Both the position numbers and the translations under genes were made by a program. From Lycium barbarum (taxonomy: Eukaryota; Streptophyta; Magnoliopsida; Solanales; Solanaceae): a DNA stretch of 64,000 nt. The stretch is from the NCBI RefSeq assembly GCF_019175385.1, contig NC_083346.1:58433821-58497820 (forward strand). The letters run 5' to 3'. Under the pieces are notes generated by a model that saw only the letters and a list, made by a program, of their open reading frames with translations, did no database searches and had not been told where the DNA came from. Shown here piece after piece: positions 5,701-48,567 of this stretch (its first letter is position 1; each line of letters starts with the position of its first letter).

Positions 5701-5829
5701 GGGATTCTAACACATTACCTGTACATCTAAGGCACACCCGTACATCTAGGGCACATATGATTTGGAAGGGTTTCCACATTACGCTCTAGTCGCAATCGCA
5801 TGAAATACAGTCCTAAATGCCATGTAGCC

Positions 5830-5871
5830 TCCTAATTTTAAGTGCGGTTCACAACACACCCATAAGTAGGA
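5830..5871 (-). other. Element P: leader hairpin after the primer site (dimer-site-like)
   Basis: On the minus strand the outer stem TCCTA/TAGGA encloses an inner stem GTGTG/CGCAC and an 8-nt loop TTGTGAAC. It lies 42 nt after the primer site, the same place and size as in B, C, F and H. The loop differs by one base from the palindrome GTGCAC seen in H. Confidence 0.75.
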
Positions 5872-5913
5872 CTCTACAAGCACAGCTTCATAGACTCCTT
5901 AGGAAACAAAAAT

Positions 5914-8306: not shown

Positions 8307-9779
8307 ACCCAAGCCTCATTTTATTTCATTCTTCATCCATACAACTCAAGAATGCACTAGAACTCTCCAAACACTTCCTCCATAAGAATCCAAGAGAATC
8401 AAAGGGAAACTAAGATCATCAACACCAAATTCAAGCAACAAAGTGTATGAAACCTAGTTGAAGGTCATCTTCTTCAAGAATTCCAAAAAGTTGAAGTAGG
8501 GTTTCGGTGCAAAAAGAAGGATTTCACTCTAAGATTGTTCAACCATCATCTAAGGTATGTTTGATGACTATATCGTGTGATTCAAGGTATGGGAAGGACT
8601 AGATACTGGAAATGTAGAAGAATATAGGAAATGGGCCATTATTGAGAAAAAAGTGCCATAGTTGGGTGGTAGCTAGGTTGGATCATGAAAGCTGACATGC
8701 TATGATTATAAATACGTTGTAAATGATGTTTAGGTCATGAAATAAGTATTATATACAAGGAAATGTGATAACGAGCTATAACCATAAATGTGAAGGAAAT
8801 TGGAGGGAGATGGTGGGTTTTGCTTAAGGCATATAAATGATGATTGTTGCTCGCAATGTTATGAGTATTGTTGTAAATGTTTGGGGGTTGAAATAGAACG
8901 GGGGAAAAGTAGTAGAAACAAAGGAAATGCCGCCTAATCTCCCTATAGATAACGACGCATTTTTTTTAAAGGTGATTAACTAATGTTAGTACGATTCTAT
9001 CGTGAAGGTAACGACGTGACCTCGAAGGAAGACAAGTGATCGATAGTGTAGCTAAGCGACAAGGTATGTGAGGCTAGTCCTTTCTTTCCAATGGCATGAA
9101 TCCTATAGTATGAGTTCATGTATCCCGAGAAGCTAAAAGTCTATATTCCTACATGTCTATATAAGATAAGAGATATGATATGATGATGCCCTTATTGCTT
9201 ACACTCACCTCATGTACTAATTCCTGCAAGGTGAGGCAGAATATTGGTAACTGCTGCATAATGAAATCGTGGGATCACGACCTTACGTCACCCCGATAGA
9301 GTATAGAGGATCTTGAGCCTTATGCACGTATTATGTTAAGATAAGCATATTTTGATAAACATATTATTACAAGTATTTTATAGTGAGCATGTCATGATTG
9401 CATCACACCGCGCCTAGTTGGCCGGGCAGTCACCACTACGGCGGGCAGCTATACGGATACACCACGACCTTCGGGCGTGGGCAGACACCACTAGTGGGTG
9501 GCATGAGATGGTACCCCGGACGCAGGCTAATATTACTGATTATCACACCGTTCCGACATGGACGGGCAGCTTGCATGTCATGCATATACGATATGATAAT
9601 AAGTATGAGTAAGACAGCATGCTTCACTTCTCTTATGATTATCATTCAGATTTAGATGTTCATATTGATGTTCTGATTATATTATCGTGTTGTCCTTCTT
9701 CATTGTTCATGCCTCTCATACTCAGTACAATATTCGTACTGACGTCCTTTTTCTTTGGACGCTGTGTTCATGCCCTGTT

Positions 9780-10185
9780 NNNNNNNNNNNNNNNNNNNNN
9801 NNNNNNNNNNNNNNNNNNNNNNNNNNNNNNNNNNNNNNNNNNNNNNNNNNNNNNNNNNNNNNNNNNNNNNNNNNNNNNNNNNNNNNNNNNNNNNNNNNNN
9901 NNNNNNNNNNNNNNNNNNNNNNNNNNNNNNNNNNNNNNNNNNNNNNNNNNNNNNNNNNNNNNNNNNNNNNNNNNNNNNNNNNNNNNNNNNNNNNNNNNNN
10001 NNNNNNNNNNNNNNNNNNNNNNNNNNNNNNNNNNNNNNNNNNNNNNNNNNNNNNNNNNNNNNNNNNNNNNNNNNNNNNNNNNNNNNNNNNNNNNNNNNNN
10101 NNNNNNNNNNNNNNNNNNNNNNNNNNNNNNNNNNNNNNNNNNNNNNNNNNNNNNNNNNNNNNNNNNNNNNNNNNNNNNNNNNNNN
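9780..10185. other. Assembly gap (406 N)
   Basis: A run of N between ...TGCCCTGTT and GTAGACAGG. In the 3' LTR only a few bases (CACAG) lie between the matching flanks, so the real missing sequence is probably very short or the gap hides a local misassembly. Confidence 0.97.
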
Positions 10186-10596
10186 GTAGACAGGGGGGTG
10201 AGCTAGATCCAGATCCATAGCAGCGGTCAGCTGAGGGAGGGCACTCCATTGTCCGGAGGTGCTTATGCTCATTCTGTTGTTATATAGATGCATATTTTGG
10301 GCACGATGGAGTCTTGTTCCATCTATGTGTATTCAGTCTGTCAGTAGAGGCTCGTAGATACGCAGTGTGGGTTAGATGGTCTCACAAGATGTTTCTATAT
10401 GTATATATTATTTTGATAGCCGAGAGGCAAATGTGTATAAAGCATTTATGTTTCTACTTAAAATATGATTTTTCCAGCATTTCGTGTATAAATTTGCAAA
10501 GAAGTATTAAATGAGTAAGATGAGCATTAGAACGAGTGGTGCTCGGTGGATAGCTCCGGGTACCCGTCGCGGCCCCTAGCTGGGTCGTGACAAAAG

Positions 10597-10608
10597 TGGT
10601 ATCAGAGC
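10597..10608 (+). other. Element B: primer binding site (initiator Met tRNA)
   Basis: TGGTATCAGAGC, 4 nt after the 5' LTR, matches the complement of the initiator methionine tRNA 3' end used by most plant gypsy and copia elements. Confidence 0.95.
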
Positions 10609-10649
10609 AGTTCGTCCTAGGAAGTGTCTACGAGCTGTGTCTAGTAGAG

Positions 10650-10690
10650 TCTTGTTTATGGTGTGTAGCGCGCCATGCTAATAAACAAGA
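10650..10690 (+). other. Element B: leader hairpin with GCGCGC loop (dimer-site-like)
   Basis: Outer arms TCTTGTTTAT/ATAAACAAGA pair over 10 bp. An inner stem GTGTG/CATGC (two G-U pairs) closes the 8-nt loop TAGCGCGC, which holds the palindrome GCGCGC. It lies 41 nt after the primer site. A conserved GAGGCTACAGGGCATTTAGG block follows directly. Confidence 0.82.
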
Positions 10691-10797
10691 GGCTACAGGG
10701 CATTTAGGAAAATGACCATCTTCCTTCTTATGAGATCGTGCGATAGAGACATGTCTAAGATTATATCCCTCCTAAAAGTGTGTTATGATTTCAGAAT

Positions 10798-12126
10798 ATG
10801 CCGCCAAAGGGAAATGCTACCGCCGCCCAGAAGGGCAAAGCTACGACAAAAAGTCGCGTGGAAAGAGAGCTTCCGCTGAATGTAGAGGAGGGCGAATCAC
10901 AAAATGAGGCCTCGCCCCAGGTGGAAGAGCAAGGGGGTGCCTCAGTCCCAATTCCTCCACCAGTTACTTCGGGTCAACAAGTGACCGAAGCTATTCATTT
11001 GTTGACGCATTTGGTTGCCGCCCAGGCACAACGACAGAATGCGAGCCTGAGTGATCGCTCCGCCCGTACTAGAGCCCATGATTTCCTAACTTTGAATCCT
11101 CCGAAATTTTTCGGGTCGAAGCCAGATGAGGACCCACAAGGCTTTGTCGTTGAGATGTTGAGGACGCTGAAACTTATGCATGCTTCTGAGACTGAATCGG
11201 TAGAGTTGGCTTCTTATAGACTTCACGATGTGGCGGTACTGTGGTATAACAACTGGATAGCGTCGGGATCAGAAAATGCGCCTCTTCCTGTTTGGCAAGA
11301 GTTTGTTGACGCCTTTATTCGTCATTATTTGCCACCCGAGGTCCGCCGACCTAGAGCGGACAGGTTTTTGAATCTAAAGCAAGGAAGTATGAGTGCCCGA
11401 GAGTATAGTATGCAGTTTAAATCTTTGGCCAGGTATGCCCCGACTATGGTGGCCGACATGGGAGACCGGGTCCATAGATTTGTGAGTGGTTTGGGGCCAA
11501 ACTTGTTTAGAGATTGTTTGACGGTCTCTTTGCAAGACGGGATGGATATCTCCCGAATACAGGCACATGCTCAGAATCTTAAAGAGCGACAACAACAGCA
11601 AAGAAGTGATCGTGACAATGATAGAAGGCATAGTAAGATAGCTAGATTTATGGGAGTGAGCAGTGAATGTGGAGGGGTATCGAGACAGATGCATTCCAGG
11701 CATTCAGGTCAGTCAACGACTAGTGCGCCTCCCAGATTCTCAGACAGGAGGTTTGATCGTTCTTTTCAGACAGGATAGGGCCAGAGTTCGAGGGCCTCAG
11801 ATTCTCAGTTCAGAGGAGATCCCAGTCAGAGGAGACCCTCAGTACCGTGGTGTAGCCAGTGCGGTAGATTGCATTCCGGACAGTGTCGTCAGGGTTTAGA
11901 TGCCTGCTATGCCTACGGGCAGGTTGGTCATATGATGAGAGATTTCCCTTCAGTAAGAGGTAGGGTTGGGACTCAGCCCACAGGTTCAGCGGCGGGTTCT
12001 TTCTCAGTACGCCCGACAGCACAAACTTCTCAAACTACAGCAGGTAGAGGCAGAGGCAGAGGTAGAGGGGGAGCATCTACTTCAGGTGCTGTTCAGCCCC
12101 ACGTATATGCTTTGGCAGGGCGGTAG
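10798..12126 (+). pseudogene. Element B: gag (capsid and zinc knuckle), with stops
   Basis: Gag forms the virus-like particle that packages element RNA. The frame opens at ATG 10798 with a basic, Lys/Arg-rich N terminus, then a glutamate-rich stretch. The retrotransposon gag domain runs from about residue 95 (LNPPKFFGSKPDEDP) to about 250 (FVSGLGPNL). A TAG at 11776, most simply read as a mutated CAG, ends the 326-residue open part. The same frame continues into the zinc knuckle (near 11900-11945), which reads CYAYGQVGHMMRDF, so two of its four metal ligands (Cys to Tyr, Cys to Phe) are lost. An arginine-glycine tail follows, and a second TAG at 12124 separates gag from pol. There is no frameshift between gag and pol. 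Confidence 0.93.
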
Positions 12127-15100
12127 GATCTTGAGTCCTCCCAAGATGTTGTCACAGGTACCTTGACTATATTTTCCCGTGATGCATATGCTTTGATTGA
12201 TCCGGGCTCTACTTTCTCTTATGTTACTCCATATGTCGCCGATTGTATTGGGGTGAAGCCCGAGCCAATCAATCCTTTTGAAGTGTTCACTCAGGTTTGT
12301 GATCCGGTAGTAGCGAGGAAAGTGTACAAGGACTGTGTTATCGTGATATGTGATCGTCAAACCAAAGCCAATCTGATCGAGCTGGAAATGGTAGATTTCG
12401 ATGTAATCATGGGTATGGATTGGTTGGCTTCGTGCTATGCTAATGTTGATTGTCGGACGAAAATGGTTCGGTTCCAATTTCCGGGAGAACCCATACTTGA
12501 ATGGAAGGGTAATACGGCAAGCCCAAAGGGTAGGTTTATTTCCTACTTTAAGGCAAGCAAAATGATAGCTAAAGGCTATATTCATCATCTAGTTCGGGTC
12601 CATGACACTGAGGCAAGGCCTCTAGCTTTCCAATCTGTTCCGGTAGTGAATGAATTTCCCGATGTATTTCCGGACGAACTTCCAGGTCTTCCTCCCGAGA
12701 GGGAAATTGATTTCACTATTGATGTGTTACCGGACACTGAGCCTATTTCCATTCCTCCTTATTGAATGGCTCCGGTAGAATTAAAGGAACTAAAAGCACA
12801 GCTAAAAGATTTGCTTGAGAAGGGATTTATAAGGACTAGCTCATCACCGTGGGGAGCACCGGTCTTGTTCTTGAGGAAGAAGGATGGATCCCTGCGGATG
12901 TGAATTGATTACCAACAGCTGAATAGGGTAACGATAAAGAACAAGTATCCCCTCCCCAGAATTGACGATTTGTTTGATCAATTGCAGGGCGCTAAATGGT
13001 TTTCCAAGATAGATTTGAGGTCTGGTTATCATCAAGTGAGAATTAGAGTAGCGGATATTCCCAAGACTGCCTTTAGGATAAGATATGGTCACTACGAGTT
13101 CCGAGTAATGTCGTTTGGGTTGACGAATGCCCCGACAGTGTTTATGAATTTAATGAATAATGTGTTCAGACCATTCTTGGATCTCTTTGTCATAGTATTT
13201 ATTGATGATATTTTGGTATACTCTCGCACGGAGTCAGAACATGCAGATCATCTAAGAATTGTCCTCGGTGTTCTCCGAGCTCGGGAATTATATGCAAAGT
13301 TTGCAAAGTGTGAGTTTTGGATGAATTCTTTAACATTCCTAGGCCACATTATTTCCGATGATGGTATCCGAGTCGACACTCAAAAAATTGAAGCTGTGAA
13401 GACTTGGCCAAGGCCTACGACACCTACAGAAGTTCGTAGTTTCCTAGGTTTGGCAGGTTACTATAGAAGATTCGTAGAGGGCTTTTCTTCTATTTCAGCC
13501 CCACTGACGAAGTTAACTCAGAAATCCACTAGATTCCAATGGAAAGATGCGTGTGAGCGTAGTTTTTAGGAGTTGAAAGACAGATTGACTTCAGCACCAG
13601 TGCTAACACTTCCAGAAGGGTCAGAAGGCTATGTTATATATTGCGATGCTTCTGGTGTGGGACTAGGATGCGTATTAATGCAGCATGGCAAGGTTATTGC
13701 ATATGCCTCGAGACAGTTGCGGAAACATGAACAAAATTATCCAACCCATGATCTTGAATTGGCCGCGGTTATTCATGCTTTAAAAATATAGAGGAATTAT
13801 TTGTATGGTGTACATATTGATATCTATACAGATCACAAGAGTCTTCAATACATTTTCAAGAAAAAGGAGTTGAATCTGCGTTTGAGGTGGTGGTTAGAAC
13901 TGTTGAAAAACTATGATGTAAATATTCTGTACCACCCGGGAAAAGCTAACGTAGTGGCTGATGCGCTTAGCCGTCGATCAATGGGAAGCTTATGTGAAGT
14001 CCCTTCAGAAAATAAGGAAATGGTTCATGAGCTTCAACGACAAGCTAATCTTGGAGTACGCACAATTGATTCGGGTAGCACAGGTATCAGCATTAGTAAC
14101 CCCACAGTTTCATCCTTAAGTACAGAAGTAAAGGAATGACAGTACGAAGATTCCCAGTTAAGCCACTACCGAGACGTATCTCGTGAGAAGGAAAAGTCTC
14201 TATTTGAAGTCTGCACAGAAGGGGTTCTCAGATATCAGGGCAGGCTATGCGTACCGGATGTGGCAAGATTGCGCCAAAGGATTCTAGAGGAAGCTCACTA
14301 TTCTCGGTATTCTATTCATCCCGGTGCAAGCAAAATGTATCATGACCTCAAATCGATATATTGGTGGAACGGTATGAAGAGAGACATAGCAGAATTTGTA
14401 GCCCAATGTTCGAATTGCCAACAAGTAAAAGCTAAACATCAAAAGCCAGGAGGCTTATTGCAAGCAATAGAGATTCCTACATGGAAATGGGAAGAAATTA
14501 ATATGGAATTTATTGTAGGATTACCTCGTTCCTGAGGCAAATATGATTCTATATGGGTTATCCTGGACAGACTCACAAAAGCAGCTCATTTCCTCCTAGT
14601 TAGAACCACGTATTCAGCGGAAGATTATGCTAGGTTGTACTTGAAGGAAATTGTGCGAATTCACGGAATTCCTTTGGCCATTATCACAGACAGAGGGGCA
14701 CAGTTTACAGCTATGTTTTGGAAGTCCTTCCAAGAAGGTTTGGGTACTCAGGTTAAGCTCAGCACAGCGTTTCTTCCACAGACTGACGGACAAGCTGAAC
14801 GTACTATTCAGACCTTGGAGGACATGCTGCGAGTGTGTGAGTTGGATTTTGGCGGTAGTTGGGATGAACATTTACCCCTTATTGAATTTGCCTACAACAA
14901 CAACTATCATTCCGGTATCCAAATGGTCCCGTATGAAGCATTATACGGAAGGAAATGTAGATCTCCAATTGGATGGTTTGAAACCGGAGAAGCGCAACTG
15001 ATAGGCCCCGACTTGATTCAACAAGCGGTCGAAAAAGTCAAAATCATTCGAGACCGACTTCTGACAGCCCAAAGTCGCCAAAAGTCTTATGCGGACAACC

Positions 15101-15654
15101 GCCAACGAGATTTGGAATATCAGGTAAATGATTGGGTATTCCTGAAAGTATCACCGATGAAAGGGGTGATGAGATTTGGCAAGAAAGGGAAGTTAAGTCC
15201 TAGATACGTTGGACCCTATAAAATTATCCGTAAGGTGGGTCAGGTAGCATATGAACTGGACTTGCCTTCGGAGTTTGAAGCAGTTCACCCAGGTTTTCAT
15301 GTTTCGATGCTCCGCAAGTGTATTGGAGACCCAACAAAAATAGTTCCGGTTGACGATGTGCAGGTGACAGAGAATCTGACATATGAAGAAGTTCCTGTTT
15401 CTATTCTAGATAGGCAAGTGCGAAGGCTTCGGCATAAGGAAGTCGCTTCAGTCGAAGTTCAATGGCGAAATAACAACAGGGAAGAAATGACTTGGGAAGC
15501 GGAAGAGAAGATGAAAGCCAAGTACCCGCATTTATTTCAATCTCCAGAAGAGGTTCATGATGACACGCCGAGGTTATACGGTATGTATGCTTTATTTTAT
15601 GTTTTTGGTCGTTTGCAGCCATGGATATGTTGGTATTATGATGTAGCCCTGTGA
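12127..15654 (+). pseudogene. Element B: pol (protease, RT, RNase H, integrase, chromodomain-like tail), with stops
   Basis: Pol continues in the gag frame. Protease: DPGS active site at 12199 and GMDWL near 12412. [12 protein letters not shown] and an intact FIDDILVYS (Asp pair at 13204-13209). RNase H: Asp in YCDASG (13645) and YTDHKSLQ (13831). Integrase: HHCC zinc fold with CSNCQQVK intact; the first catalytic Asp is changed to Glu (NMEFIVGLP, near 14500), while TDRGAQF and [10 protein letters not shown] are intact. The tail ends TWEAEEKMKAKYPHLF, a chromodomain-like segment. In-frame stops fall at 12763, 12901, 13567, 13789, 14137 and 14533; the last open stretch, 14635-15654, is 339 residues. 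The whole gag-pol spans about 1619 codons, normal for the family. Confidence 0.94.
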
Positions 15655-15783
15655 GGCAAAGATATTATGAGTTGCTATGACAGATGGTAGTGTCAAGTTA
15701 GAAGGGAGACTCTGGCGAAATGTTTCTAGGAATCTCGAGTATTTTAACATTTGAGGATGAATGTTCCAAAAAGGGGGGAAGAA
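15655..15783 (+). other. Element B: 3' untranslated stretch with hairpin and polypurine tract
   Basis: The pre-tract hairpin AACATTTGAGGATGAATGTT is at 15746-15765; two C-to-T changes turn two stem pairs into G-U pairs. The polypurine tract AAAAAGGGGGGAAGAA at 15768-15783 abuts the 3' LTR. Confidence 0.88.
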
Positions 15784-18127
15784 TGTTACACCTCGGAAAA
15801 GTCCTCGTATATGTACAATGAACAGACCAACGAAGGGTATGAGTATGCGATGTTATACTAAGTAGGGAATGGCGATTTATGAATTTTGAAAATAAGGAAG
15901 TTGTAGAATTTCAACACAACCAGTGGTTGTGAATCAGTATACGGCCCGTAAAGTGATTTACGAACCGTATACCACCATCGTCCTCTAGCCTTCCAAAATT
16001 TCAACTTTCTGTCCAATGGTGACATGGCTAAATACGACTTGGAATACGGCCCGTAAACTGGTTTACGGACTGTAAACCTCGATCGTAAACTGCCATGATC
16101 TCAACCAACCTTTCTGTTCTGACATGCTTAAATACGACCACACTATACGGTCCGTAAACAGGTATATGGCCCGTAAAGTGTGGTTTATGACCACTGTTCA
16201 CCCCGACTGTTGATCATTAAAAATCAAACTTTGAATTAATAAAAGGGACCCAAGCCTCATTTTATTTCATTCTTCATCCATACAACTCAAGAATGCTCTA
16301 TAACTCTCCAAACACATCCTCCATAAGAATCCAAGAGAATCAAAGGGAAACTAAGATCATCAACACCAAATCCAAGCAACAAAGTGTATGAAACCTAGTT
16401 GAAGGTCATCTTCTTCAAGAATTCCAAAAAGGTGAAGTAGGGTTTTGGTGCAAAAGGAAGGATTTCACTCTAAGCTTGTTCAACCATCATCTAAGGTATG
16501 TTTCATGACTATACCGTGTGACTCAAGGTATGGGAAGACCTAGATACTGGAAATGTAGAAGAATATAGGAAATGGGCCATTATTTAGAAAAAAGTGCCAT
16601 AGTTGGGTGGTAGCTAGGTTGGATCATGAAAGCTGACATGCTATGATTATGAATACGTTGTAAATGATGTTTAGGTCATGAAATAAGTATTATATACAAG
16701 GAAATGTGATAACGAGCTATAACCATAAATGTGAAGGAAATTGGAGGGAGATGGTGGGTTTTGCTTAAGGCATATAAATGATGATTGTTGCTCGCAATGT
16801 TATGAGTATTGTTGTAAATGTTTGGGCGTTGAAATAGAACGGTGGAAAAGTAGTAGAAACAAATAAAATGCCGCCTAATCTCCCTATAGATAACGACGCG
16901 TTTTTTTTAAAGTTGATTAACTAATGTTAGTACGATTCTCTCGTGAAGGTAACAACGTGACCTCGAAGGAAGACAAGTGATCGATAGTGTAGCTAAGCGA
17001 CAAGGTATGTGAGGCTAGTCCTTTCTTTCCAATGGCATGAATCCTATAGTATGAGTTCATGTATCCCGAGAAGCTAAAAGTCTATATTCCTACATGTCTA
17101 TATAAGATAAGAGATATGATATGATGATGCCCTTATTGCTTACACTCACCTCATGTACTAATTCCTGCAAGGTGAGGCAGAATATTGGTAACTGCTCCAT
17201 AATGAAATCGGGGGATCACGACCTTACGTCACCCCGATAGAGTATAGAGGATCTTGAGCCTTATGCACGTATTATGTTAAGATAAGCATATTTTGATAAA
17301 CATATTATTACAAGTATTTTATAGTGAGCATGTCATGATTGCATCACACCGCGCCTAGTTGGCCGGGCAGTCACCGCTACGGCGGGCAGCTATACGGATA
17401 CACTACGACCTTCGGGCGTGGGCAGACACCACTAGTGGGCGGCATGAGATGGTACCCCGGACGCGGGCTAATATTACTGATTATCACACCGTTCCGACAT
17501 GGACGGGTAGCTTGCATGTCATGCATATACGATATGATGATAAGTATGAGTAAGACAGCATGCATCACTTCTCTTATGATTATCATTCAGATTTAGATGT
17601 TCATATTGATGTTCTGATTATATTATCGTGTTGTCCTTCTTCATTGTTCATGCCTCTCATACTCAGTACAATATTCGTACTGACGTCCTTTTTCTTTGGA
17701 CGTTGTGTTCATGCCCACAGGTAGACAGAGAGGTGAGCTAGATCCAGATCCATAGCAGCGGTCAGCTGAGGGAGGGCACTCCATTGTCCGGAGGTGCTTA
17801 TGCTCATTCTGTTGTTATATAGATGCATATTTTGGGCACGATGGAGTCTTGTTCCATCTATGTGTATTTAGTCTATCAGTAGAGGCTCGTAGATACGCAG
17901 TGTGGGTTAGATGGTCTCACAAGATGTTTCTATATGTATATATTATTTTGATAGCCGATAGACAAATGTGTATAAAGCATTTATGTTTCTGCTTAAAATA
18001 TGATTTTTCCTGCATTTCGTGTATAAATTTTTAAAGAAGTATTAAATGAGTAAGATGAGCATTAGAACGAGTGGTGCTCGGTGGCTAGCTCTGGGTACCC
18101 GTCGCGGCCCCTAGTTGGGTCGTGACA
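15784..18127 (+). mobile_element. Element B: 3' LTR (2344 bp)
   Basis: It matches the 5' LTR from TGTTACACCTCGGAAAAG to GGGTCGTGACA. The palindrome array (15938-16195) is the longer, probably ancestral form. The TATA-like box is at 16234-16247, donor-like GTATGT at 16496 and 17005, the pyrimidine-loop hairpin (ACGTCC/GGACGT) at 17683-17703, and the acceptor-like CACAG|GTAGACAG at 17716-17728. Confidence 0.95.
15938..16195 (+). repeat. Element B 3' LTR: long TACGGCCCGTA palindrome array
   Basis: It has the same first unit as the 5' LTR plus about 95 bp of further TACGGTCCGTAAA-type units that the 5' LTR lacks. The 5' LTR form is joined at a GGCCCGGCCCGTAAA sequence, as expected for deletion between repeats. 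Confidence 0.88.
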
Positions 18128-20754: not shown

Positions 20755-20796
20755 AGTTTTTTCCTAGGATGTGTTTACGTGCCGTGTCCAGTAGAT

Positions 20797-20838
20797 TCTT
20801 GTTTATGAGTATGAAGCACGCCACACTTATAAGCAAGA
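20797..20838 (+). other. Element C: leader hairpin (dimer-site-like)
   Basis: Outer arms TCTTGTTTAT/ATAAGCAAGA (one G-U) enclose an inner stem GTATG/CACAC (one mismatch) and the 8-nt loop AAGCACGC. The loop is one G-to-A step from GCGCGC. It lies 42 nt after the primer site. Confidence 0.75.
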
Positions 20839-20946
20839 GGCTGCGGGGCATTTAGGAATAATGACCGCCCTTCTTCTTCATAGATCGTGTATAGAGCTAT
20901 ATCATAAGATTTCTCTTTTCCCTAATTGTGCGTTATGATTTCGGCA

Positions 20947-23236: not shown

Positions 23237-23872
23237 GCTTTCAAAACCAGATATGGTCATTATGAATTTCAGGTAATGTCATTTGGGTTGACTAACGCCC
23301 CGACAGTATTTATGAATTTGTTGAATAATGTATTTAGGCCTTTCTTAGATCTATTTGTGATCCTGTTCATCGATGACATTCTGGTATACTCTCGGTCAGA
23401 AGCAGAGCATACAGATCATTTACGTATCGTCTTTGGGATTTTTTGGACTCGAGAATTATATGCAAAGTTTTCAAAATGCGAGTTTTGGCTGAATTCTGTA
23501 ACTTTTCTGGGCCATATTATTTCAGCTGACGACATCCGAGTGGATACTCCGAAAATTGAGGCTGTGAAGACTTGGCCAAGGCCTACAACACCTACGGAGG
23601 TCTGTAGCTTTTTGGGATTAGCCAGTTATTACAGAAGATTTATAGAAGGATTTTCTTCTATTTCAGCACCATTGACGAAGCTAACTCATAAATCAGCAAA
23701 ATTTCAATGGACCGATGCTTGTGAGCGCAGTTTCCAGGAATTGAAAGATAGATTGACTTCAGCCCCAGTCCTGACACTTCCAGAAGGATCGGAAGGCTAT
23801 ATTGTTTATTGTGATGCCTTCGTTGTTGGGTTGGGCTGTGTATTGATGCAGCACGGTAAGGTTATTGGCTAT
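23237..23872 (+). repeat. RT-RNase H tandem duplication in element C, copy 1
   Basis: 636 bp (212 codons) from GCTTTCAAAACCAG to GTTATTGGCTAT, covering the second half of RT with the FIDD active site, the connection and the RNase H start. Copy 2 follows without a spacer. Confidence 0.9.
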
Positions 23873-24508
23873 GCTTTCAGAACCAGATATGGTCATTATG
23901 AATTTCGGGTAATGTCATTTGGGTTGACTAACGCCCCGGCAGTATTTATGAATTTGATGAATAATGTATTTAGGCCTTTCTTAGATCTATTTGTGATCGT
24001 GTTCATCGATGACATTCTGGTATACTCTCGGTCAGAAGAAGAGCATGCAGATCATTTACATATCGTCCTTGGGATTCTTTGGACTCGACAATTATATGAA
24101 AATTTTCAAAATGTGAGTTTTGGCTGAATTCTGTAACTTTTCTGGGCCATATTATCTCAGCTGACGGCATCCGAGTGGATACTCAAAAAATTGAGGCTGT
24201 AAAGACTTGGCCAAGGCCTACAACACCTACAGAGGTCCATAGCTTTCTGGGATTAGCTGGCTATTACAGAAGATTTGTAGAAGGATTTTCTTCTATTTCA
24301 GCACCATTGACGACGCTAACTCAGAAATCAGCAAAATTTCAATGGATCGATGCTTGTGAGCACAGTTTCCAGGAATTGAAAGATAGATTGACTTCAACCC
24401 CAGTCCTGACACTTCCAGAAGGATCGAAAGGTTATGTTGTTTATTGTGATGCCTTCGGTGTTTGGTTGGGCTGTGTATTGATGCAGCACGGTAAGGTTAA
24501 TGCCTATG
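23873..24508 (+). repeat. RT-RNase H tandem duplication in element C, copy 2
   Basis: It starts GCTTTCAGAACCAG and keeps the frame across the join. It differs from copy 1 at scattered bases and by a 1-bp deletion near 24105. The join lies at GCTTTCA, where the RT and RNase H sequences share a short identity. Confidence 0.9.
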
Positions 24509-35617: not shown

Positions 35618-37894
35618 TGTAACGACCCTCCCAGTTGTTATGGAAAATCAAGGATCACCCTACCAAATAGAACCCTTCCAAGGGTAGAATGAGCTAATAG
35701 AAACTCAAATGTAAAAGTCTAAGAACTGAAAACTTGGCTTGTTTGTGATTATTGTTTGGTTGTGTTGAGTCCACTTGAGGGTAATGTAGGACATTAGATC
35801 TCCGTTGGGAATCTGAGGCCACGGGTGAGTCTGTATGGTCTTTATACATTAATGTGCATGTTTTGTTTGTGTTGTGAGGCCTCGGATGCACTGTTGTGTG
35901 GTAGAGTGAAAAATTGGTAAAATTAGCGAGCTCACTGGTTCAGCGGCACCACTGCGGTAGGGCTGCTGTAGTGGCAGATCTCTCACCGCCGTGAACAGAT
36001 TGGAAATGGTAGCGGACACCGAACCGCTGTAGTGTTTCTATAGCGGGTCTGTGCTAGTCACAGCTGAGGTAGATAGCCACAACTGGTACAGTCGACGGGG
36101 ACAGAATACCGTGTTTTTAAACACTTAGTCTGAATTCTTTATTCATACAACTCCAACATAGTTTTCAAGAAGCATCTAGGATGAAATTCTAAGGCTAGGG
36201 CAAGAATATTCTTGAGAGGTAAGTCTCAACCCTTCCTTCCTTCATTACGTATTCATCTCTAAAATTATCATCATTTTATTGGGTCTACAATGGTGAGTGA
36301 GACTAGTAACCTAGAACATAATAGACCTTCTATAGTTGGTGGGGTATGAATATTATTCTGTGATTATCATCTAAAGGCTTGGATTATCACTTCCTAACAA
36401 AGAATTGAACCGTTAGGGACATGAACTAAGTGAATTGCGACTTAGGATTTCATAAAGATTGTAGCTTGACCATAGAAATTACTTGTAAGAGATAACTTGA
36501 TTGAATAACCTTATGAATTAATAGGTTATGGTTGCTAAGGCCAATGTTAAAATGATTTATACATAGAAAGCCTTCACCCATTAGAAAGGGGTAAAGTGGA
36601 AGGGTTCATTAATTTAATATTGTTGACTAGAGTGATTGTGATTTATTTAGCACCTTAATTGCTAGAATTTAAGCGTTCCGAGGCATTATAGAACGGAGAG
36701 GCTATAGCGGAGTGATTCGTGTTGTTCTAGATCTGCAGTTGAGGTAGGCTACGGTTTACTTGAGTTAGACATTGATTAGTTGATTTATGTGTTATGAGAT
36801 TGATAGGAAAAAACATGTCTAGTCTTCGGGCATAATGTGTGGTTGAAATTCCTATATGCTATTGATTGAGAGATAATGTGGGCTTAATGCCATTATTCGA
36901 TGTGTTTTGATCTATATTTTCATGAAAAATTACAATGAGAAGTTAATATGATCTTCTTGATTAAAATGAGATACTACTTGATAATCGATCATTGAAAGTG
37001 TTATGAATATATATATATATGAAAAGGCACATTTTACAGGGGGTGAGGATTTGACCTGGCACATTTGACAGGGGGTGAGGATGTGACCTAGGTTATGGGC
37101 TCGTGGTCCGAGGCCAGTTCCAGAGCGAGTGGTACATGAACACCATGGGTCCCCTGTAGGTCATATCTATTGGTCAAAGACACCAATTAGCATGTATGTA
37201 CATGAGTGGTCAGTGACTGAGTAAGTGAGAATGTTGTTGGGAGGTTTATTCCATTGCTTGCTTCCGTTGACTTGATTATTATTATCATTGGTGGACTTGA
37301 TTAATAATATCATTGATTGACTTGGTGTTGGCTATTTGATTATGTGTTGTTGACTAGTCTGTCTATTTTATTGATTTTATGATTCATGCATGATACTAAT
37401 CTTAGTCGGCCTATGATATCTACCGGTACATAGTGTTTGTATTGATACTACCTTGTCGCATTCTTTTGAGTGCAGATTGTGATACAGAGACTGCTACATG
37501 ACCTTATTTTCAGCTTGAGGCCATTTGCTGACAGATTGAGGGTGGGCTTCTATCCGTGCCAAGCCGCTCGAAGATCTTCCTTTATCTAATGTCTATTTTT
37601 ATTCCAGATATTGATGTTTGTTTATTTCAGACAGTATGAATTTCTTGGACATGTTTTGGGTTAGGGTCCTTGTACAGTGACTTTAAGATTTTGGGGTTGT
37701 AATAGTTAGGACTTCTGCATTTACTTTATTGTTTTATCGCGTGGCTACTTTTGATTAATCTTGCGTTTAATTAAATGTGCATTGAATGAATTGACTAAGT
37801 AAAAATGGACTTTGAATGAATAGATGGTTAAGTCTACTGGTTCGTCCACTGGGATTTAGAGTGGGTGCCAGTCATGGCGGGTTGGATTGTGACA
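35618..37894 (+). mobile_element. Element F: 5' LTR (2277 bp)
   Basis: It starts TGTAACGACCCTCCC and ends TTGGATTGTGACA. It holds a shortened palindrome array (35938-36110), donor-like GTAAGT at 36219, two copies of a GGCACATTTGACAGGGGGTG repeat (37025, 37060), and the hairpin GCATTC-TTTT-GAGTGC at 37458-37473 next to acceptor-like GTGCAG. The open frame 37816-38061 runs from the LTR into the leader and is not a gene. Confidence 0.93.
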
Positions 37895-37898
37895 AAGG

Positions 37899-37910
37899 TT
37901 GTATCAAAGC
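37899..37910 (+). other. Element F: degraded primer binding site
   Basis: TTGTATCAAAGC, two changes from TGGTATCAGAGC, 4 nt after the LTR. Confidence 0.7.
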
Positions 37911-37954
37911 TTTACGTTCATCGATCTTATCGTACAAGGACATATCTAGTAGAG

Positions 37955-37996
37955 TCTTGCGGATCAGTACGGAGACGTCTGTACTTACCTTCGAGA
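37955..37996 (+). other. Element F: leader hairpin with AGACGTCT loop (dimer-site-like)
   Basis: Outer arms TCTTG/CGAGA enclose an inner stem AGTAC/GTACT and a 10-nt loop holding the 8-nt palindrome AGACGTCT. It lies 44 nt after the primer site. The sequence differs from that of B, C and H but the shape and size (42 nt) are the same. Confidence 0.78.
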
Positions 37997-38121
37997 GGCT
38001 ACCGGACATTAGGAAAATTCGCTTTCTTTCTTTCTTTGTTTCTTTCTTTCGTGCTACTTGATTCCAATTGGTGTTTGGATGATTCAAATTGGTTTCCTGA
38101 CTATCCTTCATTCTCTCACAG

Positions 38122-39590
38122 ATGGCGAGAACACGCGCAGCTGCATCCTGAGGTAGAAGTGGAGGTAGAGGGGCAGCGCCGGTTGGGGACGGAGTTCCAG
38201 CAGTTGATCCCATGCGTCCAGTGACTCCTAATGAGGTCGCGGAAGATGCAGCCATACCAGCTCAGCCAGCGGCAGTGCTAGCTCTACCAGGGGGTGCAGT
38301 CTCTCCAAGTTTACTAGATGCGATGGCTCAGGTGCTGAACTGGTGACATGGGTTGGCACAGATCGAAGCGATACCGGCCGTTCCAGCAGATAGGGGTGTA
38401 GGGATAGCAGCCCCAGTTCCGGGAAATGTTCAGGCTTAGGGAGTTCTGCATGACGTAGCCATAGCTCTTCGCTTGGATGAAGTTTCGGGTTTCGAGGCAT
38501 TTTTTAGGCTAGTTATAGGACTGGTGATGACCGGTGAAGTGCATGATTTATTTTGAAGGTTCACTAAGATGAAGCCTCCGGTCTTCTGTGGTACTGAGTC
38601 AGAGGATGCGTACGAGTTCATTATATATTGTCATGAGAGGCTCCATACGATGGGGGCGGTGGACAAGTCTGGTGTTGAGTTTATGACTTTTCAGCTCTTG
38701 GGTGATGCCAAGTTGTGGTGGATGGCATATGTGGAGTGCAGGCCAGCTGGGTCACCTCCGTTCACTTAGGTTCAGTTCTATTCAGTATTTTTAGAGAAGT
38801 ATGTTCCGCGTACTCTGGGGGACAAGAAGAAGGATGAGTTTGCTAATATTTATCAAGGGAACTTGTATGTTGTTGTTTATGAGTCCCGTTTTCCTTCCTT
38901 GTCCATATATACTCTTCAGTTGCTACCTACTGAGGAGGAGAGGATCAGACATTTAGTGAAAGGATTGAACACTGGACTTCAGCTATCAGTTCTTCAGCTT
39001 GTAGCCACAGGGGCTTCATTCCAGGAGGTAGTGGAGCATGTCCGTGTTGTTGAGGGGATAAAAAGGAAAGTTATGCAAAGCAGGCAGAGAACAAGGGTCG
39101 AAAGGGTGGAAATTTCAGCAACTCCTTCTCTAGGGGTAAGAGTTCTCAGGTGTATTTAGGGCGTCTGGTTCAGTCCGCTATGCAAGTGTCTGTTGAGGGC
39201 CCATCAGGGGCCAATTATCATTCTTCGGGTCATCATGGGGGGCGCAACCCAGTTACCCAGGGTATGGGGGTTATACCGCTTCATCATCTTCTATTCAGCG
39301 ACCTACATTGGACCGTTCTTGTTACGAGTGCAGTGAGTGAGGTCATATTAAGATGTTCTGCCCCAGACTCAGACAAAGTGGTCAGGGGACTCAGTATCTG
39401 GCTCCCCAAGCTCCATTCGCACAAGATAGAGGAGACAAGGACCGTGTACAGGTAGGGCGGGGTGGCCACACCTGGGGTAGGGGTGGCACTCAGCCAAATC
39501 GAGGCATTTCTCAGGTAGGCAGAGGTGGACAGCAGTCCGACAGGGGCGGGGCTCAGACTGGACAGGGTTATAGCAATGGTTCATAGGCTA
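38122..39590 (+). pseudogene. Element F: gag, with stops and frameshifts
   Basis: It starts at ATG 38122 (MARTRAAAS), with a TGA at 38149 followed by a Gly/Arg-rich stretch. The gag domain is readable at 38569-39130 (MKPPVFCGTESEDAYEFI, later LLPTEEERIRHLVKGL) with stops at 38344, 38437, 38554 and 38767. A frame change near 39100-39150 leads to the zinc knuckle near 39317-39360, which reads CYEC, a stop, then GHIKMFC, so spacing is kept. A Gly/Arg/Gln-rich tail (39380-39580) follows. Confidence 0.88.
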
Positions 39591-42500
39591 CTGGAGGGAG
39601 CGATGACTTGCACACCTTCCCAAACATACCCTAGGCTATGGCCTCCGATGCCGTCATCACAGGTACTCTCTCAGTTTGTAAACAGATGGCTTCTGCTTTA
39701 TTTGATCCGGGTTCTACTTTTTCATACGTGTCTTCATATTTTACTGTGGGTTTGGATGTGATTTGTGATACACTTTATGCCTCTATCCATGTGTCTACTC
39801 CGGTCGGGGATTCGGTGGTGGTAGATAGATTCTACCGTTCTTGCGCTTTTACATTTATGGGGTATAGTACTTGGGCGGATTTAATGATCCTAGACATGGT
39901 AGACTTTGATGTCATCTTGGGCATGAGTTGGTTGTCCCCACATTATGCGATTCTAGATTACCACTCTAAAATAGTTACCTTAGCTATGCCCGGGGTACCT
40001 AGACTTGAGTGGAAGGGTGACCTTAGTTCCCTCCCTAAGAAAGTTATATCCTTCACTCATTCTAAGAAGCTAATAGAGGGGGCTGTTTAGCTTATTTGGC
40101 CTATATCTGTGATACCAGCGTAGATACTCCTCCTATTGATTCAGTTCGAGGGGTACGCGAGTTTGCAGATGTGTTTCCCGTGGACTTGACAGGTATGCCA
40201 CCTGACCGTGACATCGACTTCTGGATTGAGTTAGATCAGGGACTCATTCGATCTTTATTCCACCCTATAGGATGGCACCTATAGAGTTAAGGGAATTAAA
40301 AGAGTAGTTGCAAGATCTCTTGAGTAAGGGGTTTATTCGCCCGAGTACCTCTCTATGGGGTGCTCCAGTGTTGTTTGTTAAAAAGAAGGACTGGTCTATG
40401 CGCATGTGGTTGATTATCGTCAGCTGAATAAGGTCACTATCCGAAACAAGTATCCCATCCCCCGTATTAGCGGTTTATTTGATCAGCTTCAGGGAGCTTC
40501 TGTGTTCTCTAAAATTGACTTAAGGTCAGGGTATCACCAATTAAAGATTCAGGTAGAAAATGTTCCTAAGACATCCTTAAGGACCATGTGTAGACACCAT
40601 AAGTTCTTGGTTATGTCTTTCAGGCTAACTAATGCCCCAGCTGCATTTATGGATTTGATGAACAGTATTTTTAAGCCCTATTTGGATTCTTTCGTGATAG
40701 TGTTCATTGATGATATCCTGGTGTATTCTAGAAGTAAGGAGGATCATGATAAACATTTGAGGATTGATCTTGGGGTATTGCAGGAAAAGAAGTTGTATGC
40801 TAAGTTCTCCAAGTGTGAATTTTGGTTGTCTTCAGTGTCCGTCTTGGGGCATGTAATTTCAAAGGAGGGTATTATGGTGAATCCGCAGAAAATTCAGGTA
40901 GTCAGGGAATGGGCTAGGCCCACATCAGTGATCAAATTCATAGTTTCATCGATCTGGCTAGCTATTATCATCGGTTCGTGAAGGGGTATGCCTCTATTGC
41001 TTCTCATTTGACCCGTTTGACTCAGAAAAAGGTACCGTTTCAGTGGTCTGACGAGTGTGAGGAGAGCTTTCAAAAGCTCAAGACCTTGTTGATGACAGCT
41101 CCTATTCTAGCATTGCCCGTGGAGGGCAAGTATTTTGTTATTTATTGTGATGCTTCACGCTCTAGTTTGGTTACTGTTTTGATGCAGGAAATGAAGGTAA
41201 TTCCTTCCGCTTCTAGACAGTTAAAAGTGCATGAGAAGAACTATCCTACTCATGACTTTGAATTGGCAGCTATGGTGTTTGCGCTGAAAATCTAGAGGCA
41301 CTACTTGTATGGTGTTCGTTGTGAGGTGTACACTGATCATCGTACCTTGCAGCATGTGTTCACTAAGAGGGATCTGAATGCTAGGCAGCGGAGATAGATG
41401 GAGTTGCTGAAGGATTATGACATCACCATTCTATACCATCCTGGTAAGGTAAATGTGGTGGCCGACGCATTGAGTAGGAAGTTAGTCAGTATGGGACGTC
41501 TGGCTCGCTTGATCTCTTTGGAGCGTTCGTTAGCTATAGAGGTTCAGACTCTGGCTAACAGTTTTATGAGGCTGGATGTGTCTAGCATAGGCAGAGTGTT
41601 AAGGCTAGGTTATCGTTTCGGGAGCAGATTAAGGCTAAATAGTTTGAGGATGCTAAGTTGTGTAAAATTCGTGACAAGGTGTTGCGTGGTGAGGCCAACG
41701 AGGTCATGATCGATGAAGAGGGGGTGTTACGGATTAAGGGACGAGTTTGCGTGCCACGTGTGGGTGATTTGATCAAGACTACTCTAGCAGAGGCTCACAG
41801 TTTGAGGTATTCCATTCATCCTGGTGCTACTAAGGTGTATCGCGATCTGAGATAACATTATTGGTGGGCTAGGATGAAGCGTGACATAGTGGAATTTGTT
41901 GCTCAATGTTTGAACAGCTAACAGGTGAAGTATGGACATCAGAAACCTGGGGGTACGTTTCAGAGGATGCCTATTCCTGAGTGGAAGTGGGAAAAAATAG
42001 CAACATATTTCGTGGTTGGTCTTTCGAAAATGTTGGGGAAGTTTGATTCTATATGGGTTATTGTCGACAGGTTGACTAAGTCTGCTTATTTTATTCTGGT
42101 TCGGATAACTTATGACACCGAAAAATTAGCCAAGATCTACATTCGTGAGGTTATTAGACTACATAGGGTTCTTATTTCCATCGTATGCAACAAGGGCACG
42201 ATGTTTACATCTCTGTTTTTGGAAGCATCTGCATTTGGAATTGGGTACTAGGTTTGACCTTAGTACAACTTTCCACCCTCAGACTGACGGGCAGTCCAAA
42301 TGGACTATTCAGGTTCTTGAGGATAAGCTTCGGGCTTGTGTGATAGATTTTGGTGGTCACTGGGATCAGTTCTTACCATTGGCAGAGTTCGTATATAGCA
42401 ATAGCTACCACTTAAGCATTGACATGTCTCCATTTGAGGATTTGTATGGGAGGAGCTGTAGGTCTCCTATTGGTTGGTTTAATGCGTTTGAGGTGAGACC

Positions 42501-42990
42501 TTGGAGTACGAACCTTTTGAGAGAGTTATTAGAGAAGGTGAAGGTGATTCAAGCTAAGCTTTTAGCAGCACAGAGCAAAAAGACTATGCGGACCAAACGG
42601 TCCGAGATCTTGAGTTTATGGAGAGAGAGCAAGTTTTGTTGAAAATTTCACCCATGAAGGGTGTGATGAGGTTTGGGAAGAGGGGCAAGCTTATCCTAGG
42701 ATTTATTGGGCCATTTGAGATTCTCAAGAGTGTGGGGGAGGTAGCTTATAAGTTGGCTTTACGTCCTGGCTTATTAGGTGTTTATCCGGTATTTCACGTT
42801 TCGATGTTGAAGAAGTATTACGGCACTGGTTCGTACATAATACGTTAGGATTCGGTCTTAATAGATGAGAACTTGACCTATGAGGAAGAGCCTATTGTTA
42901 TCTTAGACAGAGAAGTTCAGTGGAAGAATCGGATATGCATAGCAAGTATCCTCAGCTTTTCGCCGAGACAGGTAACCGTTTTCCTAGATT
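39591..42990 (+). pseudogene. Element F: pol, frameshifted, catalytic residues lost
   Basis: Protease has DPGSTFSYVS near 39703 and ILGMSWLSP near 39918. RT spans 40406-40981 with FIDDILVYS intact. RNase H is at 40978-41360 ([17 protein letters not shown]). Integrase, 41658-42560 over two frames, has lost two of three catalytic residues: the first Asp reads Tyr (ATYFVVGL) and the second reads Asn (VCNKGTMF); the Glu in LPLAEFVYSN remains. The zinc block reads CLNS, losing a Cys. The last part, 42618-42990, has a chromodomain-like tail with internal deletions. It is not functional. Confidence 0.9.
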
Positions 42991-43003
42991 CCTCATCCTT
43001 GTC

Positions 43004-43019
43004 CGTTCGGGGACGAACG
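43004..43019 (+). other. Element F: pre-LTR hairpin (CGTTCG-GGGA-CGAACG)
   Basis: 6-bp perfect arms and a GGGA loop, 21 nt before the 3' LTR. Compared with AACATTCG-AGGA-CGAATGTT of other families, two pairs of the stem change on both sides. Confidence 0.78.
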
Positions 43020-43039
43020 ATGTTTTAATTGGTATCTGA

Positions 43040-45369
43040 TGTAACGACCCTCCCTGTCATTATGGAAAATCTAGGATCACCCTACAAAATCGAACCCTTC
43101 CATGGGTAGAATGAGTTAATAGAAACTCAAATGTAGAAGTCTAAAGACTTAAAACATGGCTTGTTTGTGATTATTGTTGGGTTATGCTGAGTCCACTTGG
43201 GGGTGATGTAGGAAATTAGATCTCCGTTGGGGATTCCGAGGCCAAGAGTGAGTCTGTATGGTGTTTTTACATTACCGTGCTTGTTTTGTTTGTGTTGTGA
43301 CGCCTCAGATGAATTGGTGAGTGGTAGAGTGAAAAACTAGTTAAATTAGCGAGCTCACTGGTTTAGTGGCACCACTGTAGCAGACGAAGCACCGCTGCGG
43401 CGGGGCCGCTGTAGAAGCGGATCTCTCACCGCCGTGGACATATGGGAAATGGGGGTGGCCGCTATGGTGGACACTGAACCGCTATAGAACTTGTCCTATA
43501 GCTTGTCCGTGCTTGCCACAGCGGAGGTAAGCATTTAGTGGAGGTCCGCTATAGCGGGCCCTTTCCCGCTATAGCGAGACCGCTGCAGCGACTGGATGAC
43601 CGCCGTAGCTGTCGAACAGGACAGAATACCGTGTTTTTAAACACTTAGTCCGAATTCTTTATTCATAAAACTCCAACACTATTTCCAAGGAGCACCTAGG
43701 GTGAAATTCTAAGGCTAGGGCAAGAATATTCTTGAGAGGTAAGTCTCAACCCTTCCTTCCTTCATTACGCATTCATCTCTAAGATTATTATTATTTTAAT
43801 GGGTCTACAATGGTGAGTGAGGCTAGAAGCCCTAGAACTTAATAGACCTTCTATAGTTGGTGAGGTATGAATATTATTGTGTGATTATCATCTAAAGGCT
43901 TGGTTATCACATCCTAACCAAGAATTGAACCGTTAGAGACATGACCTATGAAAATTGAGACCTAGGGTTTCATAAAGATGGTGGCTTTACCATAGAAATT
44001 GCTTGGAAGAGATAACTTGATTGAATAATCTTATGAGTTGATAGGTTATGGTTGCTAAGGCCAATGTTAAGATAATTTATACATAGAAAGCCTTCACCCA
44101 TTAGAAAAGGGTAAAATGGAAGGGTGTTCATTGAATTGATATTGTTTACTAGAGTGATTGTGACTTATCTATCATCTTAATTGCTAGACTTTGAGCGTTC
44201 CAACACATTAGGGAAGGGAAAGGCTATAGCAGAGTGATTCGTGTTGTTCCAGCTTTGCAGTTGAGGTGGGTTACGGTTTACATGAGTTAGACTTTGATTA
44301 GTTGATTGTATGTGTTATGAGATTGATAAGAGAAAGCATGTCTAGTCTTCGGGCATAATGTGTGGTTGAAATTCCTATATGCTATTGATTGAGTGATAAT
44401 GTGGGCTTAATGGCATTATTCGATGTGTTGTGATCTATAATTTGATGAAAATTGTGGTGAGAAGTTAATATGATCTTCTTGATGAAAATGAGATACTACG
44501 TTATGATTGATCATTGAGAGTTTTTTATATATATATATATATATATATGAAAAGGCACATTTGACTAGGTTATGGGCTCATGGTCCGAGGTCAGTTCCGG
44601 AGTGAGTGGTACGTGGACACCATGGGTCCCCTGTGGGTCATAGCTATTGGGAAAAGACACCAATTAGCATATATTTATATGATTGATCAGTGACTGAGTG
44701 AGTGAGAATGTTGTTGGGAGGTTTATTCCATTGTTTTCTTCCGTTGACTTGATTGTTAATATCATTGGTGGACTTGATTGATAATATCATTGATTGACTT
44801 GGTGTCAGCTATCTGATTATGTGTTGTTGACTGGTCTATCTATTTTATTGATTTTATGATTCATGCATGATACTAATCTTAGTCGGCCTATGATATCTAC
44901 CGGTACATAATGTTTGTACTGATACTACCTTGCTGCATTCTTTTGAGTGCAGATTGTGATTCAGAGACTGCTACTTGGCCTTATATTTAGTTTGAGGCCA
45001 TTTGCGACAGCTTGAGGGTGAGCTTCTATCCGTTCCAGGCCGCTCGAAGATCTTCCTTTATCTAATGTCTATTTCTATTGCAGACATTGATATTTATTTA
45101 GTTCAGACAGTATGAATTCCTTAGACATATTTTGGGTTAGAGTCCTTATTCGGTGACTTTCGGATTTGGGGTTGTAATAGTTAGGACTTCCGCATTTACA
45201 TTATTGTTTTATGGCATGGCTACTTTTGATTAATCTTGCGTTTAATTAATTGTGCACTGAATGAACTGACTAATTAAAAATGGACTTTGAATGAGTAGAT
45301 GGTTAATCATATTGGTTCGCCCACTAGGAGTTTGTGTGGGTGCCAGTCATTGCGGGTTGGGTCATGACA
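43040..45369 (+). mobile_element. Element F: 3' LTR (2330 bp)
   Basis: It matches the 5' LTR. Its palindrome array (43362-43612) is about 70 bp longer than in the 5' LTR, but its GGCACATTTGAC repeat is reduced to one copy (44553). A TA-repeat lies at 44524-44548. The hairpin CTGCATTC-TTTT-GAGTGCAG is at 44933-44952. Confidence 0.93.
43362..43612 (+). repeat. Element F 3' LTR: CCGCTATAGCGG palindrome array
   Basis: Units such as CCGCTATAGCGGG and CCGCTGCGGCGG, some perfect. The 5' LTR copy (35938-36110) has fewer units. Confidence 0.85.
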
Positions 45370-45374
45370 AAGAC
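45370..45374 (+). repeat. Target site duplication of element F, right copy (AAGAC)
   Basis: It matches 35613-35617. Confidence 0.93.
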
Positions 45375-48372: not shown

Positions 48373-48412
48373 AGTTCGTCCTAGGGCTGTCAACAAGTTG
48401 TGTCTAGCAGAG

Positions 48413-48454
48413 TCCTGTTTATGGGTGTGCAGTGCACCACACTTATAAATAGGA
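48413..48454 (+). other. Element H: leader hairpin with GTGCAC loop (dimer-site-like)
   Basis: Outer arms TCCTGTTTAT/ATAAATAGGA (one G-U), inner stem GTGTG/CACAC perfect, 8-nt loop CAGTGCAC with palindrome GTGCAC. It lies 40 nt after the primer site. This is the cleanest copy in the window. Confidence 0.83.
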
Positions 48455-48567
48455 GGCTGCAGGACATTTAAGAAGATTGCCTTTCTTTCTCATCTTAGAT
48501 CGTGCGATAGAGCTGTGTTATAAGGATTCCCTTTTCCTGATCGTGTGTTATGTTTTTAGTGATGCAT

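Follow-up and report, generated by a model that had tools for sequence, protein, structure and literature searches.

A predicted dimer-initiation hairpin with a palindromic loop in the leaders of plant Ty3/gypsy retrotransposons

Elements and leader hairpins in the window

The window, by which we mean the whole stretch of plant DNA analysed (64,000 nt), contains five retrotransposon leaders with a hairpin downstream of the primer binding site, in elements labelled B, C, F, H and P. In element B, the primer binding site at 10597-10609 (plus strand; exact TGGTATCAGAGCA), putatively of the initiator-methionine type, is followed by the hairpin at 10638-10702 (plus strand) and by a gag open reading frame at 10798-11778 (plus strand) with Pfam matches to Retrotrans_gag (3.5e-17) and Ty3_capsid (3.2e-8). 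This order of leader and gag was checked for element B only. Overall, the reading frames of the B region match Retrotrans_gag, Ty3_capsid, RVT_1 and SH3_Tf2-1, and a match to Chromo (E 3.6e-5, 24.0 bits) lies just below the cutoff of 25.1. The combination of gag, reverse transcriptase (RT), SH3_Tf2-1 and a sub-cutoff chromodomain makes it likely that this element is a Ty3/gypsy retrotransposon of the chromovirus type.

A likely LTR pair delimits element B at 8398-18127 (97-98% identity over 1,378 and 407 nt), and another one delimits element F at 36091-45372 (87.6% over 1,811 nt, and 78% over another 408 nt); the loop palindrome is still perfect in both of them. In element C, part of the RT region is tandemly duplicated at 23237-24398, the copies being about 635 nt apart and 93-94% identical. 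Element P has an RT-like stretch at 5925-4726 (minus strand), 38% identical to the RT of C, which begins about 430 nt past the primer site and leaves little room for gag; 14 stops interrupt one piece in the frame tried. Judged from its sequence, P appears to be a degenerate, rearranged or chimeric copy.

The 13-nt primer-site match is free of mismatches in B and C, and has one mismatch in H and P and three in F. The first-pass annotation had described a hairpin of 41-42 nt starting 40-44 nt past this match in all five elements. Hairpins are indeed present at those coordinates and at that distance, but they proved to be larger: RNAfold adds a lower stem and predicts a single hairpin of about 66 nt in each of the five window leaders. 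Besides the hairpin of element B, these are located at 20785-20850 (C), 37943-38008 (F, the representative of an F-like lineage) and 48401-48466 (H) on the plus strand and at 5817-5884 (P) on the minus strand, as defined by sequence and RNAfold. In most leaders the lower stem pairs TGTCY, a mismatch and GYAG with CTRC and GGRCA, while F and P deviate. Above it follow an internal loop, AG/GG (AT/GG in element C), a middle stem of the form TCYTG...CARGA, extended by TTTAT/ATAAA in most leaders, and an apical stem that is mostly of the GTGTG/CACAC type. The apical loop has 8 nt, of which two are free and the other six often form a palindrome. The block following the smaller hairpin (GAGGCT; GAGGCTRCRGGRCATTTAGG) had been noted as a further shared feature. 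It is common to the elements, with four occurrences in the window at three or fewer mismatches (B, C, H and P) against 0.04 expected and a more diverged version in F, but it is not a separate feature, since the 3' arm of the predicted lower stem lies within it.

The loop sequences differ between the elements. B carries GCGCGC at 10668-10673 (plus strand), the commonest type with 36 of the 105 loops compiled below, H carries GTGCAC at 48432-48437 (plus strand) and F carries GACGTC at 37974-37979 (plus strand), inside AGACGTCT. The F loop had been read as one of 10 nt; it can also be read as an 8-nt loop with a closing G-U pair, and GACGTC then aligns in register with the other loops. Loop palindromes had been claimed for the window elements, and they are perfect in these three of the five; the loops of C (GCACGC, 20816-20821, plus strand) and P (GTGAAC, 5847-5852, minus strand) are imperfect, each one base away from a palindrome present in other copies. 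For C this is GCGCGC, which other copies in the genome carry with the same AA flank, and for P it is GTGCAC. A blastn search with all 105 leaders (E 1e-3) found no sixth leader in the window. No Rfam family reached its gathering score over the window, and there was no match to a curated RNA family that would speak for descent from HIV-1 SL1.

Conservation of stem and loop in the genome

The primer site followed by 68-98 free bases and GAGGCTNC was found at 21,037 places in the 1.67-Gb plant genome that contains the window, and the reversed pattern had no match in the same genome. The pattern fixes the primer site, GAGGCTNC and the GG on the 3' side of the internal loop, and it leaves the loop and the 5' arm of the hairpin free. 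The main sample consists of 100 listed places of the 21,037, all within the first 25.3 Mb of contig C1, together with the five window leaders (105 in total). Of these, 103 are distinct after two duplicates were dropped, and 104 entered the loop-dealing and folding counts, as one leader whose loop contains a gap was left out. All comparisons are within this one plant genome. Beyond it, none of 21 stretches in viral contigs with the primer site and GAGGCT resembled this leader, nor did any of five stretches matching a second hairpin pattern in other collections or the single match of the shared block in a genome-contig collection; of four pattern stretches from an RT query, none was confirmed as this leader.

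In the 103 distinct leaders, the 26 stem pairs hold in 2,487 of 2,644 cells (94%), compared with 38-56% when the partners are slid by 1-3 columns. The weakest is pair 72-93, with just 45 of 79 cells paired. The stem changes listed in the first-pass annotation are found in the sequence, and two-sided changes occur in the sample at pairs 67-98 (TA/GC), 69-96 (TA/GC/CG), 76-89 (GC/AT) and 77-88 (TA/CG). G-U pairs are frequent, such as at pair 52-113 (TG 63, TA 30) and at pair 73-92 (GT 61, GC 34). The 5' side of the internal loop is likewise conserved, with A in 102 and G in 98 of 105 leaders. The hairpin also outlasts the divergence of the proteins: that of F folds much like the others, although the gag of F is only 25% identical to that of B and its RT 43-67% identical to that of C over four pieces.

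Such strong conservation of the stem and of the purine internal loop could also be explained by a leader structure with another task, such as Gag binding and packaging, the control of translation or leader protection, in which the palindrome has no intermolecular role. The loop itself is what this explanation has to accommodate. Perfect 6-nt palindromes occupy 78 of the 105 loops and are of seven kinds: GCGCGC (36), GTGCAC (32), GCCGGC (4), GACGTC (3) and, once each, GGCGCC, GCATGC and GTCGAC. A 6-nt palindrome is expected by chance about once in 64, and we counted 244 among the 15,267 6-mers of the same leaders, the loops included (1.6%); of the distinct loops, 77 of 103 are palindromic. Dealing the loop halves at random 20,000 times, a procedure that ignores kinship, gave a mean of 31 palindromes and never more than 49, compared with 78 of 104 observed. 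The loop slid by -2 still pairs in 84% of cells, and slid by +3 in 71%, because GCGCGC and GTGCAC themselves alternate.

Most of the 27 non-palindromic loops (22) are one base off one of the seven palindromes. By hand count, these 22 changes resemble G to A in 13 cases and C to T in 4, the remaining 5 being of other kinds; the counts are small and partly common by descent, and some of these loops may have arisen otherwise. Grouped by the number of broken stem pairs (25 counted), the leaders have palindromic loops in 35 of 43 cases if no pair is broken, in 21 of 29 if a single pair is, in 21 of 30 for two to four broken pairs and in 0 of 2 for five or six; one leader with more than six falls outside these groups. 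The loss of palindromes with broken stems fits decay after insertion, but the trend is weak and the difference slight.

Two further samples from the same genome extend the range of palindromes. A pattern in which only the 5' half of the loop is fixed (GNY) has 2,167 places. Thirty loci from it carry GCCGGC (18), GCTGGC (5), GCCAGC (2), GCCGAC (2) and, once each, GCCGGT, GCCGGG and GCCCTC, and by hand GCCGGC was counted in 71 of the 100 matches listed, so that this sample is mainly one family type. The imperfect palindrome GCCGAC recurs in 9 of the 100 matches listed, again by hand count (C1:23569558, C1:32856713 and others), and may mark a subfamily with a mismatched kissing pair. An F-like pattern has 985 places; among the 100 matches listed, three of which are also in the first sample, four rows of other length were dropped and 96 full-length rows were kept. 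These have 31 distinct loops, and 55 of the 96 are palindromic (GAGCTC 38, GACGTC 16, TACGTA 1), compared with a mean of 30 and a maximum of 46 in random dealing. Across the samples there are thus at least nine kinds of palindrome, five in more than one copy and four found once each. Six of the seven palindromes of the main sample, as well as GAGCTC and TACGTA, have a central G-C or C-G step, GCATGC being the exception.

The palindrome could in principle act in DNA, by binding a protein dimer or by contributing to a cruciform. DNA often has palindromic sites, and at this level the hairpin sequence forms an inverted repeat; however, several different palindromes at one place ill suit a single sequence-specific protein, a cruciform would by reasoning not need a palindromic loop, and the frequent G-U pairs in the stem fit RNA. 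We consider a role in DNA extremely improbable.

For an RNA contact the loop has to be accessible, and the predicted folds largely agree with this. In the minimum-energy folds of hairpins folded alone, all six loop bases are open in 88 of 104. Among the window copies, B prefers another apex, in which most of the palindrome is buried, and F pairs two of the six palindrome bases; only one out of three GACGTC loops is open at all six bases. For each of the five window hairpins, the co-fold of two copies has a lower energy than a pair of monomers (B -64.7 versus -52.0, H -82.3 versus -70.4, with gains of about 3 for C, F and P), a gain that would be expected of any such self-complementary stems.

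Between the primer site and the hairpin, we also observed a second palindrome, CCTAGG, at 10616-10621, 20763-20768 and 48380-48385. Its place is the next-best fixed palindromic site, found in 52% of leaders and of a single type. It could be a further dimer contact, or it could be due to chance.

Joint change of loop bases on trees

Since related copies share their loops by descent, the palindromes were also examined on trees, using our own scripts and ranking 10,878 column pairs. Loop pair 2-5 is composed of CG 53, TA 38, CA 5, AT 4, GC 1 and GT 1, and pair 3-4 of GC 81, CG 11, AT 1 and 10 others. By the G statistic these two pairs rank first and second of the 10,878, but against a null simulated on the tree they are not significant (E 0.6 and 9.6). 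A second test counts double changes, in which two columns pass together from one Watson-Crick pair to a different one on the same branch, and we gave this same-branch test more weight than the G statistic. With a tree built without the hairpin, pairs 2-5 and 3-4 again rank first and second, with 9 and 7 events as compared with 4 for the next best (P 0 of 20,000 and 5e-5, respectively). With a tree that omits the loop only, the 4 events of pair 3-4 are matched by one other column pair (P 0.007), and pair 2-5, with 2 events, is not significant (P 0.30). Pair 1-6 is near-constant and shows no double change in any tree test.

We repeated the test with an enlarged set. Of 37 extra loci, 11 were dropped (one without the stem and 10 without the primer core) and 4 were already included, leaving 22 added leaders, which came from searches picked for B-like leaders or GNY loops. 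On the hairpin-free tree, pair 3-4 then ranks first (7 events, P 0.0008) and pair 2-5 second (6 events, P 0.0006), with 5 events for the next-best column pair; on the tree including the stem they rank fourth (P 0.025) and eighth (P 0.13). The significance of the loop pairs thus depends on the tree.

These results bear on the question whether ancestry alone could account for the loops, with a few founder families that had palindromes by chance and statistics that count relatives. Of the 78 palindromic loops, 68 are GCGCGC or GTGCAC, and three of the seven kinds are single, which is in line with such founders, as are the non-significant G statistic against the simulated null and the loss of significance for pair 2-5 on the tree that includes the stem. 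However, seven palindromes would have had to arise at one place where the chance rate is so low, and parsimony counts 13 palindrome-to-palindrome switches on the hairpin-free tree and 10 on the tree omitting the loop only. In a gag-region tree of 35 elements, which is without support values, the palindrome types are scattered: GCCGGC stands beside GCGCGC, GGCGCC beside GACGTC, and GCGCGC occurs in several branches. The F-like lineage, moreover, holds two well-populated palindromes. Shared ancestry as the sole explanation therefore seems very unlikely to us.

The same changes speak against a conserved leader structure whose palindrome has no intermolecular role. It leaves unexplained why one palindrome is replaced by another (seven types, with GAGCTC added), and also why the adjacent loop bases 3 and 4 change jointly. 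These two bases cannot pair within one loop, and their joint change indicates pairing between molecules. We regard such a purely structural function as unlikely.

Proposed role and relation to known systems

Our data argue that the hairpin, with high probability, serves the genomic RNA of chromovirus-type plant Ty3/gypsy elements as a dimer-initiation site in its 5' leader. The position between primer site and gag (in element B), the conserved stem, the loop palindrome and the replacement of palindromes are directly supported. A kissing-loop hairpin kept by compensatory change, as proposed in the first-pass annotation, is well supported by the sequence comparison, through the 94% stem pairing, the palindrome switches and the ranks of the loop pairs on the hairpin-free tree; the interpretation given in that annotation is, as a whole, partly supported. 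We infer from this that the RNAs would dimerise in the cell: two copies would first meet by pairing their 6-nt loop palindromes in a kissing complex, after which the stem, long and nearly self-complementary, could open and pair anew across the two molecules to give an extended duplex. Gag or nucleocapsid would be likely to make contact at the conserved purine internal loop, coupling dimerisation to packaging. The extended duplex, Gag binding and packaging via the hairpin are speculative, and the Gag contact is suggested by analogy with HIV-1 SL1, whose internal loop is described as a Gag/NC site (PMC5874298).

Does the choice of palindrome matter? In HIV-1, the two central G-C pairs are reported to be critical to the stability of the kissing complex (PMC5874298), and a discordant GCGCGC/GUGCAC combination to lower co-packaging 2.3-fold (PMC3605237). 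By analogy, palindrome choice could matter for partner choice in the plant elements too, but two palindromes dominate across families. It is conceivable, though we are doubtful, that the loop palindrome acts as a self-recognition tag, with families in one nucleus switching between GC-rich palindromes by paired changes and their RNAs preferring their own kind. If true, this would limit co-packaging and recombination with other families, or parasitism by them. The earlier suggestion that differing palindromes could bar pairing between families, as a family-specific code, has weak support, since GCGCGC and GTGCAC each recur in separate families.

To our knowledge, the choice and pairing of genomic RNA in plant LTR retrotransposons is little understood. 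With thousands of copies of this leader hairpin in a single genome, and a range of naturally occurring palindromes among them, it can be tested directly on natural sequences, and if partner choice follows the palindrome, this would bear on recombination between families and on parasitism. In the open-access PMC literature, none of the titles and abstract openings listed points to such a hairpin in plant gypsy elements, and the main text of a 2025 review on host factors of plant LTR retrotransposons has no word beginning with 'dimer' (PMC12786077). The barley elements BARE1 and BARE2, likewise plant LTR retrotransposons but of the Copia superfamily, are stated to have conserved dimerisation and packaging signals (PMC3735527); words beginning with 'palindrom' or 'kissing' are absent from the main text of that paper. 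In the fungal copia element GalEa, a palindromic hairpin in the primer region has been described, which its authors distinguish from a dimer-initiation site (PMC5445492).

Among the other systems, Ty1 of yeast has been proposed to use kissing loops, SL1a and SL3a, in the 5' part of its RNA, and the divergence of Ty1 and Ty2 has been suggested to impede their joint packaging (PMC5454406). Ty1 combines two different complementary 7-nt loops with a pseudoknot, whereas the plant hairpin has one self-complementary loop. A closer parallel in superfamily is the yeast element Ty3, where deletion of the palindrome DS/PAL6 (CUGCAG) stops dimerisation in vitro; it lies at nt 391-396 and is the sixth of six palindromes, of which the 5' UTR and the GAG ORF are reported to contain three each (PMC11381356). 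Like the plant loops, DS/PAL6 is a GC-rich 6-nt palindrome, and it sits apically in a short hairpin. The plant palindrome, in contrast, is found in the untranslated leader soon past the primer site, on a longer conserved stem and with covariation across families.

The hairpin resembles HIV-1 SL1 in that both are leader hairpins with an internal loop whose apical loop carries a 6-nt palindrome, and in that GCGCGC and GTGCAC occur in both. The plant loop has 8 nt (2+6), unlike that of SL1, which has 9 nt. In HIV-1, GCGCGC, GUGCAC and GUGCGC are given as the three prevalent palindromes (PMC5874298), compared with five recurrent and four single ones in the plant genome. Palindromic kissing loops are an accepted feature of retroviruses and have been proposed for Ty3, as have complementary kissing loops for Ty1. 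What appears to be new, judging from the titles and abstract openings listed, is a probable instance of the kissing-loop site in plant gypsy elements with many palindromes in one genome, which would extend the retroviral kissing-loop principle to these elements on evolutionary evidence.
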